Source of the DNA: Lentisphaeria bacterium
GTDB taxonomy: Bacteria > Verrucomicrobiota > Lentisphaeria > Victivallales > Victivallaceae
Direction of reading: 5' to 3'
NCBI GenBank assembly: GCA_017454215.1
Contig: JAFTDL010000039.1
Span: 1-42,739, forward strand
Length of the DNA: 42,739 bases
Shown here: positions 14,698 to 25,820 of the stretch, one piece after another
Position numbering within the stretch: position 1 is the first letter of the stretch
How the letters are laid out: each line of letters opens with the position of its first letter
Notes under the pieces: generated by a model
Told to the model about the DNA's origin: nothing
The model's input: the letters and a program-made list of their open reading frames with translations, nothing else
The model's database searches: none
Translations under genes and position numbers: made by a program

Positions 14698-15425
14698 TTG
14701 AGCATTCCTTTTATTGCGGCCTCGGCTTTTGCCAGATCTTCAGGCGTGTCCACGCCGATGCTGGAGAGATCCGAGGTCAGTACGTGAATTTTCATGCCGT
14801 TTTCCAGCGCCCGGAGCTGCTCCAGCTTTTCGCAGTTCTCCAGCGGACTCGGGGGCAGGGCGACGAACTTTTCGAGCGCCGCCCTGCGGTAGGCGTAGAT
14901 GCCCCAGTGCAGCCACATCGGGGCTTCCACCCCGCCCGAACGCAGAAACGGTATCGGCGCGCGGCTGAAATAAAGCGCCGTATGATCGGCTCCGAAAACG
15001 ACCTTCACGTTGTTTTCGGTCATTTTTTCGCGGACGGCGGGGACCGCCACGGTCGCCATGTCCAGTTCGGGGCGCGCCTTCATGAGGGCGATGAGTTCGT
15101 CGATGACGGAGCTGGGGATCAGCGGTTCGTCGCCCTGAACGTTGATGACGATCTGCGCGTCGGTCCCTGCGACGGCCTCGCAGATGCGGTCGGTGCCGGA
15201 AGGATGGTTTTTCCCTGTCATCACCGCCTTGAATCCGGCGGCGGTGACGGCGCTGAAGATCCGTTCGTCATCGGTCGCGACCATGACCGTGTCGGCACAG
15301 CTGGACGCGGCCTTTTCGCAGACGTGAAGGATCATCGGCTTTCCGGCCAGAACGGCCAGCGGTTTGCCGGGAAAACGGCTGCTGGCATAGCGGGCGGGAA
15401 TGACTACGGCGACTTTTTCGGACAT
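14694..15425 (-). CDS. kdsB: 3-deoxy-manno-octulosonate cytidylyltransferase
   Basis: Activates KDO as CMP-KDO for transfer to lipid A. It is 243 aa. The N-terminal nucleotide-binding signature VVIPARYASSRFPGKPLA, the VATDDERI block, GKNHPSGTDRICEA and NVQGDEPLI are diagnostic, as is LHWGIYAYRRAALEKF. The ATG shares one base with the stop of the upstream heptose kinase (TGATG), and its own stop overlaps kdsA by 4 nt. Confidence 0.97.
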   Translation of the reverse strand: MSEKVAVVIPARYASSRFPGKPLAVLAGKPMILHVCEKAASSCADTVMVATDDERIFSAVTAAGFKAVMTGKNHPSGTDRICEAVAGTDAQIVINVQGDEPLIPSSVIDELIALMKARPELDMATVAVPAVREKMTENNVKVVFGADHTALYFSRAPIPFLRSGGVEAPMWLHWGIYAYRRAALEKFVALPPSPLENCEKLEQLRALENGMKIHVLTSDLSSIGVDTPEDLAKAEAAIKGMLK

Positions 15426-16438
15426 CAGGCATCCTCCTGTTCACAAACGTCACACAATTCTGAAAAAGCGATCGGCGCGGTGCCGACTTTGGCGACGACC
15501 ACGCTGGCCGCCCGGTTGGCGATGTCGGCCGCCGTTACGGGATCGGCTCCTGAAGCCAGCGCCAGCGTGTAGGCCGCCGTCACGGTGTCGCCCGCGCCGG
15601 AAACGTCGAAAACTTCGCGGGCCCGGGTCGGAATGATCTCTTCCTTCCGGTCCCTGCGGAAAAGTCCCATGCCCTGAGCTGCGAGGGAGATGAGCAGATG
15701 GTCGGGCTGCCACTGCTCCAGAAGGACTTCCGCGGCGTTTCTGAGGGCCGGATCGGTCCGGGGATCGGCGCCGGGGGTCCTGTCCTGAACGTTGGCCATG
15801 GCGAATGCCTCGTTCCGGTTGGGTTTGATGAAGGTCAGTCCCCTGACCGGATCGATGCCGCCCGGCTTGGGGTCCAGCGCCGTGGCCACGTTGTACTTGC
15901 GCGCCTCGGCAACGATCTCTTCGAGCATCCACGTCGCCAGCAGACCCTTGGCGTAGTCCTCGAAAATGATCGCGTCGAACTCTCACGAACGGATGCGGTC
16001 GATGATGAGATCGACCATTTTGCGCCTGACCCCGTCGGGAACGGGAGAAGTGTTCTCCTGATCGACCCGCAGAAGCTGCTGTCCGGAGGCCATGATCCGG
16101 CGTTTTTCCGTCGTCGGACGGGCGGGATCATAGAGGACTCCGTCTGCGCCGATCTTCTCCGCGGCGAACTCCGCCAGCACCTGTTTGCCTGCGTCGTCGT
16201 CGCCGATGACACCGAAACCTTCGGCGCGGGCGCCGAGTGTTGCGATGTTGCGCATGACGTTGGCGGCTCCGCCGAGACAGCAGGTACGCTTCTTGACGCT
16301 CACCACGGGCACGGGGGCCTCCGGCGAAATGCGGGTGACCTGACCCCACAGATAGATGTCGAGCATGATGTCTCCGAGCACGGCGACCCGGGCCGAACTG
16401 AAGCGCGGCAGGATGGCGGATCTGTTTCCTGTGATCAT
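15425..16438 (-). pseudogene. rfaE1: D-glycero-beta-D-manno-heptose-7-phosphate kinase, interrupted by an in-frame TGA
   Basis: A PfkB-type kinase that phosphorylates heptose-7-phosphate at C1 for ADP-heptose synthesis. The frame spans 337 residues, normal for the stand-alone kinase, but codon 152 is TGA (15985-15983). The N-part (151 aa) has VAVLGDIMLDIYLWG, RISPEAPVPVV and GGAANVMRN. After the TGA, in the same frame, come EFDAIIFEDYAKG, LDPKPGG, KPNRNEA and the catalytic DVSGAGDTVTAAY. An ATG at 15928 lies 18 codons downstream but lacks a clear ribosome-binding site. Both halves are fully conserved, so the lesion is recent, a sequencing error, or read through. It overlaps orf153 by 4 nt and kdsB by 1 nt. 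The adenylyltransferase partner rfaE2 is at 16974. Confidence 0.85.
15983..15985 (-). other. In-frame TGA codon in the heptose kinase
   Basis: On the coding strand the codons read CGT TCG TGA GAG TTC GAC, with homology continuing in the same frame on both sides. The position falls in the variable stretch just before the conserved DYAKG motif, where homologues show no fixed Trp or Cys. A one-base change from CGA (Arg), GGA (Gly) or TGG (Trp) would produce it. I see no clear bacterial SECIS-like hairpin immediately downstream. Confidence 0.85.
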
Positions 16439-20542: not shown

Positions 20543-20899
20543 TTACCCCGGGAATTTGGAGATGACGGCGAGAACTTCCAGCGTCTCGCCGCCGATGTTT
20601 TCGATGGCGTGACCCGCGCCGCCGCCGGTGAGGACGGCGTCTCCCGCAGCGATTTCGGCAACCTGTCCGTTGTCGTCGATGCGGGCGCGGCCCTTCATGA
20701 TGACGAAGAGTTCCTCTTCACCGTCGTGACGGTGAAAACCGATGGAGTTGCCCGGTTCGATGACGAGACGGGCGCAGAGACGGTTCTGCGACCTGATCTC
20801 GCTGCCGGGTTCGAACATGTGGGCGATGCGGATCGTTCCTTTGCCGCCGCGCATTTCAAAGCGCTCTTCGATGCGGCAGTCGTTCTTTCTGCGGATCAT
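20543..20899 (-). CDS. Cupin-domain protein
   Basis: A single-domain cupin of 118 aa. The ATG at 20899 is chosen because it has a near-perfect ribosome-binding site (GGGAGG, 6 nt upstream). Cupin motif 1 is visible as GFHRHDGEEELFVIMKGRARI, giving two His and a Glu for metal, and motif 2 as GDAVLTGGGAGHAIENIG, giving the last His. The substrate cannot be told; relatives include sugar-phosphate isomerases and small sensors. It is the first gene of a unit running into lysA, tsaB and rfaE2. The 198 nt upstream (20900-21097) hold no gene that I can support. Confidence 0.85.
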   Translation of the reverse strand: MIRRKNDCRIEERFEMRGGKGTIRIAHMFEPGSEIRSQNRLCARLVIEPGNSIGFHRHDGEEELFVIMKGRARIDDNGQVAEIAAGDAVLTGGGAGHAIENIGGETLEVLAVISKFPG

Positions 20900-21097
20900 G
20901 AAAACCTCCCGGATCCCCCGAAAATTCGCCGTTTCGCGCAATGGCGCTCACGCCCTCACCCGGGTTCCGGCCTGTTTTCGGGGAGGACCCCCCGCGCTCC
21001 GCACCTCCGAAGCTCAGCCGCTCCCGCGGCCTCGCGTTCCGGTACTGCGCGCAAAGGATCCTGTTTATTCTTTATGACGGTATGAATGCCATCTCCT

Positions 21098-23176
21098 TCA
21101 GGCCAGAGGGCCGAAAATGTTTCCGTACTTCTTTTCGTTGAGCGCCTCCACATAGGCGCTGATCTTGGTCTCGGTACTGCACGGGTCGATGGTGGTGTCG
21201 ACGCAGTCGCCGTCGAGCATGAGCAGGGGGACCCCGGCCTTGTTCAGTTCTTCTCTCAGGTGCTTGGCGAAGGAACTGTCGGACATGGAGCAGCGGCCGA
21301 AGCCGTGATTGTAGAGGATACAGCCGTTGATGCCTATTTTACGCCCCTCCTCGACGATGGAGCGCACCCGCAGGGCCGGGTCCAGAAATCCCGTGGTCAG
21401 GAGCTTTCTGGCCAGACTGCGGAAGGGGTCGTCGGGATCCAGATCTCCCCAGCCGATGAAGTTCACCTCTTCGAATACGATAGGCGCGCGGCAGTTGATC
21501 TCGACGTAGTCCAGCAGCGAACTGTCGTAGAAGGGCGGCAGGTGCAGCCACAGCAGACGGTGCGTGCTCGATATATCCACGGACTTGATCCGCTCCTCGC
21601 GGATCTCCTGGAGCTCCTCGTAGAGCTTCTTCTGGATGTCCACCAGTTCTCTGCGGCCCCACAGCTGGCTGAAGATGTTGGCGAAATAAATGGCCTGCCC
21701 GCCGCGGATGAGCGGCGGCGACTGGTAACGCAGTTCGTTGCACAGCACCGAATATTTGCGGGCCTCGTTCGAGAGCACGCAGGCTTCGGCCAGCCTGCCC
21801 ATGTCCAGCTTCAGCCCGGTGGCGCGTTCGATGGCGTGGACCGAACGGTTGAGTTCTTCGGCCATGTGCTCCACGTTGCTGTCGCACAGACCGCCTTCTG
21901 CCGGAGTATGCAGAGAAATGTAGTGCTCTTCGATGCCGTAACTGCGGGCCAGATCGCGGAAGATGCGCTCGCCCTGCTGGCAGGGCTGGCTGGTGGAGAT
22001 CACCGCCGAGGCCTGAGGCAGATCGACCCCTTCGAGCACCCGCAGAAACGAACAGGTCTCCGCCGAGAAGCCCTTGCAGGCGGCCTGATCGAAGGCGCTG
22101 CGCACCTTGCGCTGACTGCGCGCCATGAGCGCCGCATAGGTCTCGAGGGTCAGGGAGCGCACGCCGATGGCGTTGAGCAGTTCGCTGGGGAAGAAGAGAT
22201 TGCGCCAGACGAGCTTGCTTTTGCCGCGGCCGAGGAAGTCGGCGCGGGTTGCTTTGGCGCGCAGTCCCACGGACTCCAGTTTGCGCTCGGGCGGGGGCAG
22301 ACCGATGGTCTTGTCGAGTTTGCCCTTGAGTTCCGAGAACTGGCGGGCCAGACAGGCGGCGCCGATGGCTCCCATGACGCCGTTGAACTCCGGCGTGATG
22401 ATGTTGTTGCCGGTGATGAGGCGCAGATAGTAGGCCACGGCCCGGTTGTAGGCCACGCCGCCCTGAAAGACGATGTCCCCCCTGTAGTTGAGAAAGAGCT
22501 GGCCGACGCCCGACATGATCGTGCGGGCCTGAGCCCGGCAGGCGCCGCCGATGATGTCGCCCAGCGGAAAACGATTCTTGAATTTGTTGATCGATGTGGC
22601 CGAAAGCACGGCGCAGACCGAGGAGAATTCCAGATTGCTGTCGTAGTTGGCTCTGTCGGCCATGTTTTCGACGGGGACGCCGAGTTTTCCGGCCACGCTG
22701 TCGAGAAAGGCTCCGGTGCCGGCGGCGCAGATGCCGCTCATCTTGTAGTTCCAGATCTTCATGTTGTCGTTGAAGACCATGGCCTTGCTGTCCTGGCCGC
22801 CCACGTCGAGAATGGCTTTGCAGTCGGGGTAGAAATGCCGTGCGCCGGCCACGTGGGCGGAGACTTCGCTCACGCGGAAGTCGTAGGGCAGAAAGTCCGA
22901 AGTGTCGGCCACGATCTGACTGCCGGTGACCACGGTGCAGGTGACCTCCTCAAGGGACCTGATGCCGGAATCGGCCAGAAATTTATCCACCGTCTGGCGG
23001 AGCTGGCCGAAATTGCACGCGCCGCAGCGGGAGCAGACTCCCGAACAGCGGACCCTGCCCGTGTCGACCGGGCGGGTACGCTGGTAGAGCGTCTGATGGA
23101 CTCTGCCGTTTTCACGGACCAGAGCCGCCTTGAACGTGGTCGAACCGATATCTATACCCAAATAGAGTTTTTCCAT
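21098..23176 (-). CDS. Fused ATP-dependent activase and 2-hydroxyacyl-CoA dehydratase-type Fe-S protein
   Basis: A 692-aa fusion. Residues 1-~280 are a BadF/BcrA/HgdC-type ASKHA ATPase: YLGIDIGSTTFKAAL, LDVGGQDSKAM, and the cysteines of the inter-subunit [4Fe-4S] cluster in GICAAGTGAFLDS (C150) and SSVCAVLSATS (C188). Residues ~320-680 are an HgdB/double-cubane-type component: FFPSELLNAIGV, ETCSFLR (C375), STSQPCQQGERIF (C399), NHGFGRCSMSD (C629), LMLDGDCVD. Known relatives couple ATP hydrolysis to very low-potential electron transfer in anaerobes. An extra C-x3-C-x2-C-x2-C motif (C44, C48, C51, C54) sits inside the ATPase. No CoA-transferase or substrate gene is adjacent, so the substrate is unknown. 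Confidence 0.88.
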   Translation of the reverse strand: MEKLYLGIDIGSTTFKAALVRENGRVHQTLYQRTRPVDTGRVRCSGVCSRCGACNFGQLRQTVDKFLADSGIRSLEEVTCTVVTGSQIVADTSDFLPYDFRVSEVSAHVAGARHFYPDCKAILDVGGQDSKAMVFNDNMKIWNYKMSGICAAGTGAFLDSVAGKLGVPVENMADRANYDSNLEFSSVCAVLSATSINKFKNRFPLGDIIGGACRAQARTIMSGVGQLFLNYRGDIVFQGGVAYNRAVAYYLRLITGNNIITPEFNGVMGAIGAACLARQFSELKGKLDKTIGLPPPERKLESVGLRAKATRADFLGRGKSKLVWRNLFFPSELLNAIGVRSLTLETYAALMARSQRKVRSAFDQAACKGFSAETCSFLRVLEGVDLPQASAVISTSQPCQQGERIFRDLARSYGIEEHYISLHTPAEGGLCDSNVEHMAEELNRSVHAIERATGLKLDMGRLAEACVLSNEARKYSVLCNELRYQSPPLIRGGQAIYFANIFSQLWGRRELVDIQKKLYEELQEIREERIKSVDISSTHRLLWLHLPPFYDSSLLDYVEINCRAPIVFEEVNFIGWGDLDPDDPFRSLARKLLTTGFLDPALRVRSIVEEGRKIGINGCILYNHGFGRCSMSDSSFAKHLREELNKAGVPLLMLDGDCVDTTIDPCSTETKISAYVEALNEKKYGNIFGPLA

Positions 23177-23248
23177 GATATTTCCCGATCTATCTCCGGA
23201 TCGGCGGGACCGTCCCGGAACAGTTTATGGTACACTGGCACGACTGAT

Positions 23249-23277
23249 AATATAGCACGGAAAGTCCTTTTTTGCAA
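23249..23277 (-). promoter_or_regulatory. Sigma70-type promoter of the activase/dehydratase fusion gene
   Basis: TTGCAA (23277-23272) and TATATT (23254-23249) on the minus strand, exactly 17 nt apart, lie in the 124-nt gap after the kinase gene. The leader would be about 65 nt. The same hexamers and spacing recur upstream of the SurA-like gene. Confidence 0.75.
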
Positions 23278-23300
23278 GAAAACGGCATGTCTGCCGGGCT

Positions 23301-25820
23301 TCACTGCCGCGGGAAGGCCTCTCTGTAATATTTGAACGCGTTTCTCCAGAACGCCGCCGGAGCGCGCCTGGCGTCGGCCTCGGGAGAAATGCGGCGCGTC
23401 ATCAGATCGTAATAGAACTCCACATCGGGCAGATCCGTGTTTTTCACCAGATAGCGGAGCAGCTGGCGGCGCTGTTTCTCGGATGCCGGACGGTAGACGC
23501 CCTTGACGTTGCCGGGAGAGGTGACGTAGAGGACGCTGCCGTCGGGCTTGAGGCCCGTGAGTTTCGCAAGTCTGTTCCGCTGCACCATGAAAAGACCGCG
23601 GGACTGGAACGCGGAACCGGCGGAAATGAATTTCGCGTACCGGGCGGAAGCGTCTTTCGCGGTCCGCTTCAGCGCCGCAAGTTCGCTGACGGCGGCCCGT
23701 TCCCGCGGCGTGTCGCACTCCGACGGCACGACGTAGCCGTCCACGGCGGCGAGGGCGGCGTTCAGGGGATCGGGACTGCCGGACTCCGCCGAGAGCACCG
23801 CCCCCTTGAGCAGCTGTGCGCTGAGACCGGCCAGATCTTTTTTGAGTTTTGCGGCGCGGGCGTCGATCTCGGCCTGACGTTCTTTCTGGTCCTGTGCGAG
23901 CTTTGCGGTCTGCTCCTCCTGTTCGCGTCTGCGCTGTTCTTCCGCCTGCCGGCGTTCGAGGCGCAGACGCTCCTCGCGTTCCTTCGCCGCACGCCGGGCT
24001 TCAGCCGCCTCTTCGAACTTTCTGCGGGCGGCCTCGCGGCCGGGCTGGAAACGCAGGATCTCATCGGCGGTGGAGTACATCTCCCACGCGCCGCGCAGTA
24101 CGGCCAATTCCTCGGGGGTCTGCGGCGGTCCCAGACGGACGAAGGCCGCATCGGCCCTGTCGAGCCACCGCTCTCTGCGGGAAGACGGCGTGTCGCGGAA
24201 CTCCGAACGCAGAGCTTCGAGGGTGTTCACGTACTCGGGACGGGTCACAGGCTTGGGCGGAGGCGGCGGCGGAAGCGGCACGGCGGGTTTCTTTGCCGCG
24301 ACGGTCCTGCCGGGATCTTCGGCGGGTTTCGTCATGGGAGATTTCTCCGCCGCCTGTCCCAGTTTGGCCAGCAGTTTTTCTCCCCACGGTTTGAGTTTTT
24401 CGGGGAGTTTGTCCTTTCTGGCCGCGAAGTAGAAGGCCGCGGCCAGACCCGCCGCAACGAGCAGGACCGCCGCGAGAACGGTCAGCACCTTTTTGAGGAT
24501 CGCCTTGCCACGTCCGGGAACGGCGGCCTCTCCGACAGGGGCTTTTTCCCGTTTGAATCTGCCGGCCAGGCGGGAGATCGGAGAGAGGGCTTTCGGCGCT
24601 TTTTCGGCATCGGCTCCCTCCTGCGGCGCTTTCGTGTCGTCTTTTTTTTCGACGGGCTTCGGCGCGGGCTTTGCGGGAACGGGCTCGGGTTTTGCGGGAA
24701 CGGGCGCGGGTTTCGCGGGAACGGGCGCGGGTTTCGCGGGAACGGGCGCGGGCTTTGCGGGAACGGGCGCGGGTTCCGCGGGAACGGGCGCGGGTTTCGC
24801 GGGAACGGGCGCGGTGTTCCCCGCTCCCGTCCGCGGCAGATGGAGTTTGCCGCCCAGCGTCAGTTTTCCCGGCTTGCGGTTGGCGCTGCTGAGGTAATTG
24901 TCGAGGTCCTTGATGAGTTCAGAGGGCAGCTGGTAACGCTTGCTGATGTCGCGGGCCATCATTTTCACGATGATGCTGTTGATGGCGTCGGGCACTTCGG
25001 GGTTGAAATTTTTGGGCGGCACCAGATTGCCCTCGACATGCATCCGCGAGATCTCCTCGGCGGTGTCGGCCACGTAGGGAAAACGTCCGGTGACGAACTG
25101 GAAAAACGTCGCGCCCAGACTGTAGATGTCGCTGCGTACATCGGTGGGAACGCCGGTGAGCTGCTCCGGACTGATGTACTGGGGCGTGCCCATGACTTCG
25201 TCGGCATCGTCGGCCTTGTCGTTGGCTGAGGCCTTTCTGGCCAGACCCAGATCGGCGAGTTTTGCGAAGCCGTTGGAGTCGAGCATGATATTGTCGGGTT
25301 TTATGTCCTGATGCACCAGTTTCTGTTCTCTCCATGCGACATCGAGAGCGCCGGCCACTTCGCGGATGACCTTGGCCGCCTGGGTGAAACTGAGCACCTT
25401 TTCCCTCTGGAGGATCTTCTTGAAGGTCTCGCCCCGGATGAGCTCCATGGCGAAGTAGTACACGCCGTCCTCTTCGCCCACGGCGTAGGCCTGAACGATG
25501 TTGGGATGAGTGATCTTCGCCGCGGCGCGGGCTTCGCGGAACAGACCGTCGATGTATTCCCTGTCGTTGTTGAACCGGTCCTGCAGCACTTTGAGGGCCA
25601 CGGGGCGGTCCAGCGAGAGCTGACGGGCCACGTAGACCTCGCCCATGCCGCCGTGACTCAACGGTTTTTCGATGAGAAAATCACCGATGACCACGCCCGG
25701 CGCGACCTTTTTTTCGGGCACCGGGATCTCCTTGCCGCACTGGGGGCACTTTACCTTTGTGACGCCCGCCTCGGCGGCCGCCGGAAACACTTTCTGGCAT
25801 GTGTCGCAATAGAGTTTCAT
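23301..25820 (-). CDS. Membrane Ser/Thr protein kinase with zinc ribbon and Pro-rich linker
   Basis: An 839-aa Hanks-type kinase. Order: zinc ribbon CxxC-x16-CxxC (C5, C8, C25, C28); kinase domain ~45-310 with LSHGGMGEVYVAR, Lys77 in VALKVL, HQDIKPDN (H170, D172), LADLGLARKA and GTPQYISPEQ; heptads of APVPAKP (337-388); one transmembrane helix (~445-466); and an outer region with a long Arg/Glu/Gln coiled coil followed by an unassigned ~190-aa domain. The catalytic loop is HQD, not HRD, so the Arg that usually contacts the phosphorylated activation loop is missing. It begins 19 nt after the SurA-like gene. Targets unknown. Confidence 0.9.
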   Translation of the reverse strand: MKLYCDTCQKVFPAAAEAGVTKVKCPQCGKEIPVPEKKVAPGVVIGDFLIEKPLSHGGMGEVYVARQLSLDRPVALKVLQDRFNNDREYIDGLFREARAAAKITHPNIVQAYAVGEEDGVYYFAMELIRGETFKKILQREKVLSFTQAAKVIREVAGALDVAWREQKLVHQDIKPDNIMLDSNGFAKLADLGLARKASANDKADDADEVMGTPQYISPEQLTGVPTDVRSDIYSLGATFFQFVTGRFPYVADTAEEISRMHVEGNLVPPKNFNPEVPDAINSIIVKMMARDISKRYQLPSELIKDLDNYLSSANRKPGKLTLGGKLHLPRTGAGNTAPVPAKPAPVPAEPAPVPAKPAPVPAKPAPVPAKPAPVPAKPEPVPAKPAPKPVEKKDDTKAPQEGADAEKAPKALSPISRLAGRFKREKAPVGEAAVPGRGKAILKKVLTVLAAVLLVAAGLAAAFYFAARKDKLPEKLKPWGEKLLAKLGQAAEKSPMTKPAEDPGRTVAAKKPAVPLPPPPPPKPVTRPEYVNTLEALRSEFRDTPSSRRERWLDRADAAFVRLGPPQTPEELAVLRGAWEMYSTADEILRFQPGREAARRKFEEAAEARRAAKEREERLRLERRQAEEQRRREQEEQTAKLAQDQKERQAEIDARAAKLKKDLAGLSAQLLKGAVLSAESGSPDPLNAALAAVDGYVVPSECDTPRERAAVSELAALKRTAKDASARYAKFISAGSAFQSRGLFMVQRNRLAKLTGLKPDGSVLYVTSPGNVKGVYRPASEKQRRQLLRYLVKNTDLPDVEFYYDLMTRRISPEADARRAPAAFWRNAFKYYREAFPRQ
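24657..24812 (-). repeat. 21-nt tandem repeat encoding PAPVPAK heptads
   Basis: About seven to eight copies of a 21-nt unit within the kinase gene, encoding APVPAKP with one AEP and one KPEP variant. Synonymous third-base differences between copies are few, so the array is young or still homogenising. It forms a stiff, positively charged linker between the kinase domain and the membrane. Copy number is likely to vary between strains. Confidence 0.9.

Follow-up and report, generated by a model that had tools for sequence, protein, structure and literature searches.

ATP-driven electron pumps of the superfamily considered here perform some of the hardest reductions in biology, and to our knowledge its characterised systems need two to four different proteins. 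The superfamily comprises class I BCR, HAD, DCCP and, in part, TudS (PMC11971306). The 2-hydroxyacyl-CoA dehydratases are alpha-beta heterodimers in which electrons run from the activase to the beta subunit, and the known alpha-type subunits rely on this electron-relaying partner (PMC11574389). The cluster ligands of BzdO and BzdN and the role of Glu65 have also been described (PMC11971306).

The window, the whole stretch of 42,739 nucleotides analysed in this work, carries on its minus strand a gene that joins an activase and an HGD-D domain in one chain:

21098..23176, minus strand: 692-aa single-chain activase and HGD-D fusion gene; open frame with ATG start
22346..23161, minus strand: N-terminal ASKHA/archerase activase domain, residues 6–277 (PF01869; best folds 4ehu and 1hux, Z about 24)
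21140..22198, minus strand: C-terminal HGD-D domain, residues 327–679, of HgdA/HadB/BzdO (alpha) type (PF06050; tree; fold Z)

The best structural match is with HgdC/HgdA and HadI/HadB (1hux, 4eht, 3o3m), which have in common with the fusion an activase fold with two cluster cysteines and an HGD-D part with three cysteines and a glutamate. The fusion differs from them in being one chain, in a four-cysteine insert, an LSATS segment and the cysteines C658 and C666, in scoring far under the equivalog cut-offs, and in that no beta subunit was found in the carrier genomes tested. BzdO (with BzdN, BzdP and BzdQ; class I benzoyl-CoA reductase, 8s02) shares the positions of the [4Fe-4S] cysteines, the counterpart of Glu65 and the fold (Z 33.9), but the fusion is a single chain with glycine at the His131 position, and no BzdN-type partner was found in those genomes. 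The plan of DCCP/DCCP-R (6eno, 7yyl) and E. coli YjiM/YjiL, a homodimer plus activator with no heterodimeric partner, is one that the fusion may share; unlike them, it is fused, lacks the distal cubane ligands, has an alpha-type half and carries the extra insert.

A sequence-only reading of this DNA had presented the joining of activase and electron acceptor in 692 aa as exceptional. The fusion of the two components stands on the Pfam matches, but it is not unique at such a size, because the 685-aa fusion of Azoarcus sp. KH32C (WP_156822349.1) has the same domain order and a similar length. The Azoarcus protein differs in its double-cubane-like HGD-D half (221.8 bits), in the lack of the four-cysteine insert and in the retention of FAESE; its gene lies on a plasmid (L118:7006-11197) in a row with those of an activase and another HGD-D protein. 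Large activase/DUF2229/HGD-D fusions of about 1000–1550 aa also have activase and HGD-D-related parts on one chain, but with two activase domains plus DUF2229 (e.g. L119) and an HGD-D match that is partial and below the cut-off. An activase/HGD-D fusion alone is thus already in the sequence records with the Azoarcus protein; judged by sequence, the insert and the lone alpha-type half set the present family apart from it.

Our preferred reading, to which we give a probability of roughly 0.5, is that the fusion forms a homodimer and acts by itself as an ATP-driven low-potential reductase (or dehydratase), its insert being an electron-entry [4Fe-4S] site.

Domains and predicted structure

Both Pfam domains occur once each and at full length. 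BcrAD_BadFG (PF01869) is matched with an E-value of 8.5e-29 and 101.3 bits (gathering threshold 31.5) over positions 1–271 of a profile of 271, and HGD-D (PF06050) with 2.6e-42 and 146.1 bits (threshold 28.4) over positions 2–342 of 342. An AlphaFold2 model built with 13 sequences has a mean pLDDT of 79.5 and a pTM of 0.82. Its N-terminal half resembles HadI (Z 24.4) and HgdC (Z 24.0), and its HGD-D half resembles HadB (Z 34.7, rmsd 2.8, 370 aligned), BzdO (Z 33.9) and DCCP (Z 29.8). The pLDDT falls below 50 at residues 371–375, 547–549, 625–632 and 657–665, among which are the presumed cluster (cysteine) loops; low values there are expected because the cofactor is missing from the model.

A 749-aa plus-strand frame (21086-23335) runs antisense to the fusion gene. 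Just 11 of the 67 homologues keep it open, and it was therefore rejected as a gene and taken for a composition shadow.

Family and conservation

Full-length relatives occur in Lentisphaeria (34 loci) and in further orders of this class; a different class of the phylum has them in one family (f39). Genome contigs were scanned once, with exact short query peptides, and occurrence beyond the phylum is possible. Plasmid records gave no match spanning 80% of the 692-aa fusion. The 706–717-aa frames at L098, L099 and L101 appeared to be further fusions, but they are activases of about 330 aa in over-long frames. A search of the open-access literature, the coverage of which is incomplete, found no paper on this fusion family, which is weak evidence.

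The fetched loci contain 93 family members, of which 67 non-identical full-length sequences were used to assess conservation; their pairwise identities are 53–100% (mean 66%). The fusion of both domains is retained in all full-length members. Twelve cysteines are present in 67/67 sequences (C44, C48, C51, C54, C150, C188, C213, C375, C399, C629, C658 and C666), C466 and C619 are kept in 63/67, and C80, C119, C275, C367, C431, C479 and C562 are variable. The codons of the invariant cysteines alternate between TGC and TGT, at each of the four insert-motif positions as well, which argues that selection holds the residue and not the DNA.

The ORF is confirmed as a genuine gene. The sequence-only reading had named two outcomes that would speak against it, poor conservation of C44–C54 in homologues or a C-terminal half devoid of the three ligating cysteines; the motif is present and invariant, the three ligating cysteines of the C-terminal half are kept, and the observation therefore stands.

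The activase half and its four-cysteine insert

The features of the N-terminal half are as follows:

23135..23152, minus strand: phosphate-1 motif DIGSTT, residues 9–14; near-invariant in the family
23024..23074, minus strand: 17-residue family-specific insert, about residues 35–51, in the gap between strand 3 and helix 1 (alignment with 28 activases; limits from the model)
23015..23047, minus strand: four-cysteine motif C44-x3-C48-x2-C51-x2-C54, probable extra [4Fe-4S] site as judged from its residues (67/67; synonymous codon drift only)
22727..22729, minus strand: C150, activase dimer [4Fe-4S] ligand (aligns with the HgdC/HadI cluster cysteine; 67/67)
22613..22615, minus strand: C188, second activase dimer [4Fe-4S] ligand (alignment with other activases; 67/67)
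22592..22606, minus strand: LSATS, residues 191–195, replacing FAESE (all six aligned family representatives)

The translation also contains the phosphate-2 motif DVGGQDSK (124–131) and GGVAYN (239–244). The replacement of FAESE by LSATS after C188, pointed out in the sequence-only reading, is a family trait, and in the six representatives the segment is one residue shorter than its counterparts in other activases.

The C44–C54 motif sits some 30 residues past the phosphate-1 motif (D9–T14). The insert, which carries its first three cysteines (C44, C48 and C51), occurs in none of the 28 further activases in the alignment, the placement of the gap being approximate; these came from E. coli, Rhizobium, Azoarcus, Paraclostridium, Fusobacterium, Rhodococcus, Sphingopyxis, Sulfurovum, Ilyobacter and relatives within the phylum. 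The TIGR00241 domain cut-off is missed (121 against 125.4 bits) with a match beginning at profile position 51, and the insert probably disrupts the N-terminal part of this match.

In the predicted fold the insert lies between strand 3 (26–33) and helix 1 (55–69). The strand-strand-strand-helix order of the first half of the ASKHA fold recurs in the second (121–126, 129–136, 141–147 and 151–165), and C54 directly precedes helix 1 as C150 directly precedes helix 1'. From this topological argument, the four-cysteine motif would face the dimer cluster across the nucleotide cleft by internal pseudo-symmetry.

The insert has a rival explanation that turns on the metal: four cysteines are able to hold zinc, and their spacing differs from the classic ferredoxin order CxxCxxCxxxC, so the motif could be a structural zinc site with no extra redox centre, a reading compatible with the other views of the rest of the protein. 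We hold it possible but doubtful, because the tight spacing, with four cysteines in 11 residues, resembles that of [4Fe-4S] sites, the insert takes the place that corresponds by topology to the C150 cluster in the predicted fold, and the protein family is otherwise built on Fe-S clusters. From the residues present, the insert probably holds an extra [4Fe-4S] cluster, and it is plausible that C44–C54 bind it and feed electrons in.

Genome content and neighbourhood

In the genome of the window (83.6% complete), HGD-D and the activase domain are each matched once, both times by the fusion; no separate activator was found in it. Exactly one HGD-D match was present in 22 of 25 further genomes, being the fusion in 21, whereas in the remaining one (G036) it falls on a 433-aa frame that encodes another protein. 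With a single match per carrier genome, no second HGD-D gene for a separate beta subunit is seen in the 21 carrier genomes tested or in that of the window.

The fusion gene has a kinase gene upstream and cupin, lysA and tsaB genes downstream. The linkage to lysA/tsaB is found in most loci of the same family, with other neighbours elsewhere, and no catabolic neighbour is conserved across the compared loci. The earlier remark that no acyl-CoA genes are nearby agrees with the Pfam scan of the window ORFs, in which none was found; the remaining window is mostly housekeeping, with ribosomal proteins, EF-G, RNA polymerase, LPS, isoprenoid and lipid genes. The next gene downstream is the following:

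20543..20899, minus strand: 118-aa Cupin_2 protein (PF07883)

Its distance from the fusion gene is 5–123 bp in most loci that have the cupin, 202 bp in the window and 667 bp in L008. The cupin is present without the enzyme in three genomes (G026, G031 and G008) and is absent from several carrier genomes; it is therefore not counted as a functional partner, but as a frequent loose neighbour.

The upstream gene (23301-25820, minus strand) encodes a Ser/Thr protein kinase that has a zinc-ribbon-like cysteine motif at its N-terminus and a PAKPAPVP repeat; among the compared loci, only the window and L002 have it next to the fusion gene. Farther away, a sugar-kinase-like gene (15425-16438, minus strand) beside a heptose adenylyltransferase gene has one in-frame TGA (15983-15985); the gene is a single open frame in L002 and L003, and the TGA may be a real nonsense change or an error of the assembly.

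On an Ilyobacter polytropus plasmid (L126:4867-9021), a 330-aa HGD-D protein and an activase are encoded directly before queD, queE, folE and queC, an arrangement suggestive of an ATP-driven reaction in the metabolism of 7-deazaguanine or in a related pathway. Because this pair adjoins que genes, the role of a missing epoxyqueuosine reductase was considered for the fusion. It was rejected: QueH is present in 25/27 genomes regardless of the enzyme, and QueA likewise in 25/27; the scan for QueG gave no match above the cut-off.

The type of the C-terminal half

The residues of interest in the HGD-D half are as follows:

22142..22144, minus strand: E345, counterpart of the BzdO catalytic Glu65 (profile alignment; invariant in the A1 and A2 sets)
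22052..22054, minus strand: C375, first HGD-D [4Fe-4S] ligand (aligns with BzdO C95 and HadB/HgdA; 67/67)
21980..21982, minus strand: C399, second HGD-D [4Fe-4S] ligand (aligns with BzdO C128 and HadB/HgdA; 67/67)
21290..21292, minus strand: C629, third HGD-D [4Fe-4S] ligand (BzdO C380 loop, alignment offset about two residues; 67/67)
21203..21205, minus strand: C658, extra invariant cysteine in the last strand-helix loop (67/67; column without cysteine in 13 other HGD-D proteins)
21179..21181, minus strand: C666, extra invariant cysteine in the same loop (67/67; column without cysteine in 13 other HGD-D proteins)

By alignment, the half retains the three cysteines and the glutamate of a single-[4Fe-4S] site. 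The sequence-only reading had described it as double-cubane-type and had pointed to a family tree against HgdB and double-cubane proteins for a check, and here it has to be corrected. A tree built from 22 HGD-D sequences places the family with HgdA, RhizA, RhodB and SphA (support 95/95) and away from HgdB, YjiM and further proteins of beta or double-cubane type; several branches are long, and the tree is therefore moderate evidence. The NCBIfam scores all miss their cut-offs, with 51 of 448.6 bits for BzdO (TIGR03191), 49.2 of 750 for the HadB equivalog (NF052455) and a partial 31.6 of 350 for the double-cubane model (NF040772), on which the YjiM control scores 531 bits. The distal double-cubane positions (C36, C263 and C293 in BzdN; C40, C251 and C278 in YjiM) are occupied by N326, L546 and V571. 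The half thus belongs with the catalytic alpha type (HgdA/HadB/BzdO) by its aligned residues, its place in the tree, its profile scores and its predicted fold, which matches HadB and BzdO better than DCCP.

This placement invites the view that the protein is a conventional 2-hydroxyacyl-CoA dehydratase or aryl-CoA reductase fused by chance, with a CoA thioester bound at the HGD-D half and an electron that only starts radical dehydration or ring reduction. The grouping with HgdA and other alpha-type subunits, the best folds (HadB and BzdO) and the retained glutamate and cysteines are as it would have them. We nevertheless consider it unlikely, given that a beta subunit was found in none of the carrier genomes tested, that the HadB and BzdO scores are far under the equivalog cut-offs, that the scanned neighbours include no acyl-CoA gene, that no catabolic neighbour is shared across the loci, and that G402 stands at the BzdO His131 position in the profile alignment.

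The fusion could also serve to activate some other metalloenzyme or cofactor reductively, as the RACE proteins do for corrinoids; the HGD-D half would then be an electron relay or docking part with no active site. Such a role would suit a stand-alone gene with no constant neighbour, and the segment after C375 is short in alignments with HgdA and BzdO; yet no target gene travels with the fusion gene and the residues near the presumed HGD-D cluster show some of the highest conservation in the whole chain, and we regard this role as improbable.

C658 and C666 lie one helix and one strand beyond the C629 loop, and the proposed scheme gives them no role, which counts against it. They might join the three alpha-type cysteines in a five-cysteine cluster that would be neither the [4Fe-4S] cluster of HgdA/BzdO nor the DCCP double cubane, combined with the extra electron-entry cluster and a non-CoA substrate. 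We offer this as a speculative reading with rather low odds; if true, the family would add a branch to the BCR/HAD/DCCP superfamily. A double-cubane protein with a reductase fused on is very improbable, for although the superfamily is the same, the DCCP fold and the double-cubane profile give some match, and C658 and C666 might serve as non-canonical ligands of a second sub-cluster, the distal ligand positions lack cysteine and the half is of alpha type in the tree.

Proposed mechanism

The preferred reading, that of a self-contained ATP-driven reductase or dehydratase, can be put as a series of steps. Two chains would dimerise via their activase domains and share one dimer [4Fe-4S] cluster, with C150 and C188 of each chain as ligands. 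The [4Fe-4S] cluster of the insert may accept electrons from ferredoxin or flavodoxin and hand them to the dimer cluster, from which ATP binding and hydrolysis would drive single electrons of very low potential into the HGD-D [4Fe-4S] cluster (C375, C399 and C629). This transfer would run from the activase cluster straight to the alpha-type cluster, without a beta relay. The open iron site of the HGD-D cluster, aided by E345, would then do the chemistry, as reduction or radical elimination.

We infer the homodimer, the clusters, the electron path and the low-potential chemistry from the features described above. The self-contained enzyme is supported by the completeness of both halves, with all their motifs, by the nine presumed cluster cysteines being invariant in 67/67 sequences under codon drift, and by the lack of a further HGD-D match in the 21 carrier genomes and in that of the window. 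Against it speaks the reliance of known alpha-type subunits on a beta relay, for which these genomes gave no candidate. In three solved entries the chains of DCCP and DCCP-R are equal in number (12 and 12); this 1:1 ratio is the one that a fusion would fix, and it was counted in favour of the scheme.

Significance

Anaerobic Lentisphaeria bacteria carry the fusion gene, among them the cultured Victivallis vadensis DSM 14823 and strain zth2, and the family is therefore open to experiment. With the pump, its acceptor and what is probably an electron-entry cluster encoded by one gene, the fusion could offer a compact model for the lowering of redox potential by ATP, and the lone alpha-type half calls the need for a beta relay subunit into question.
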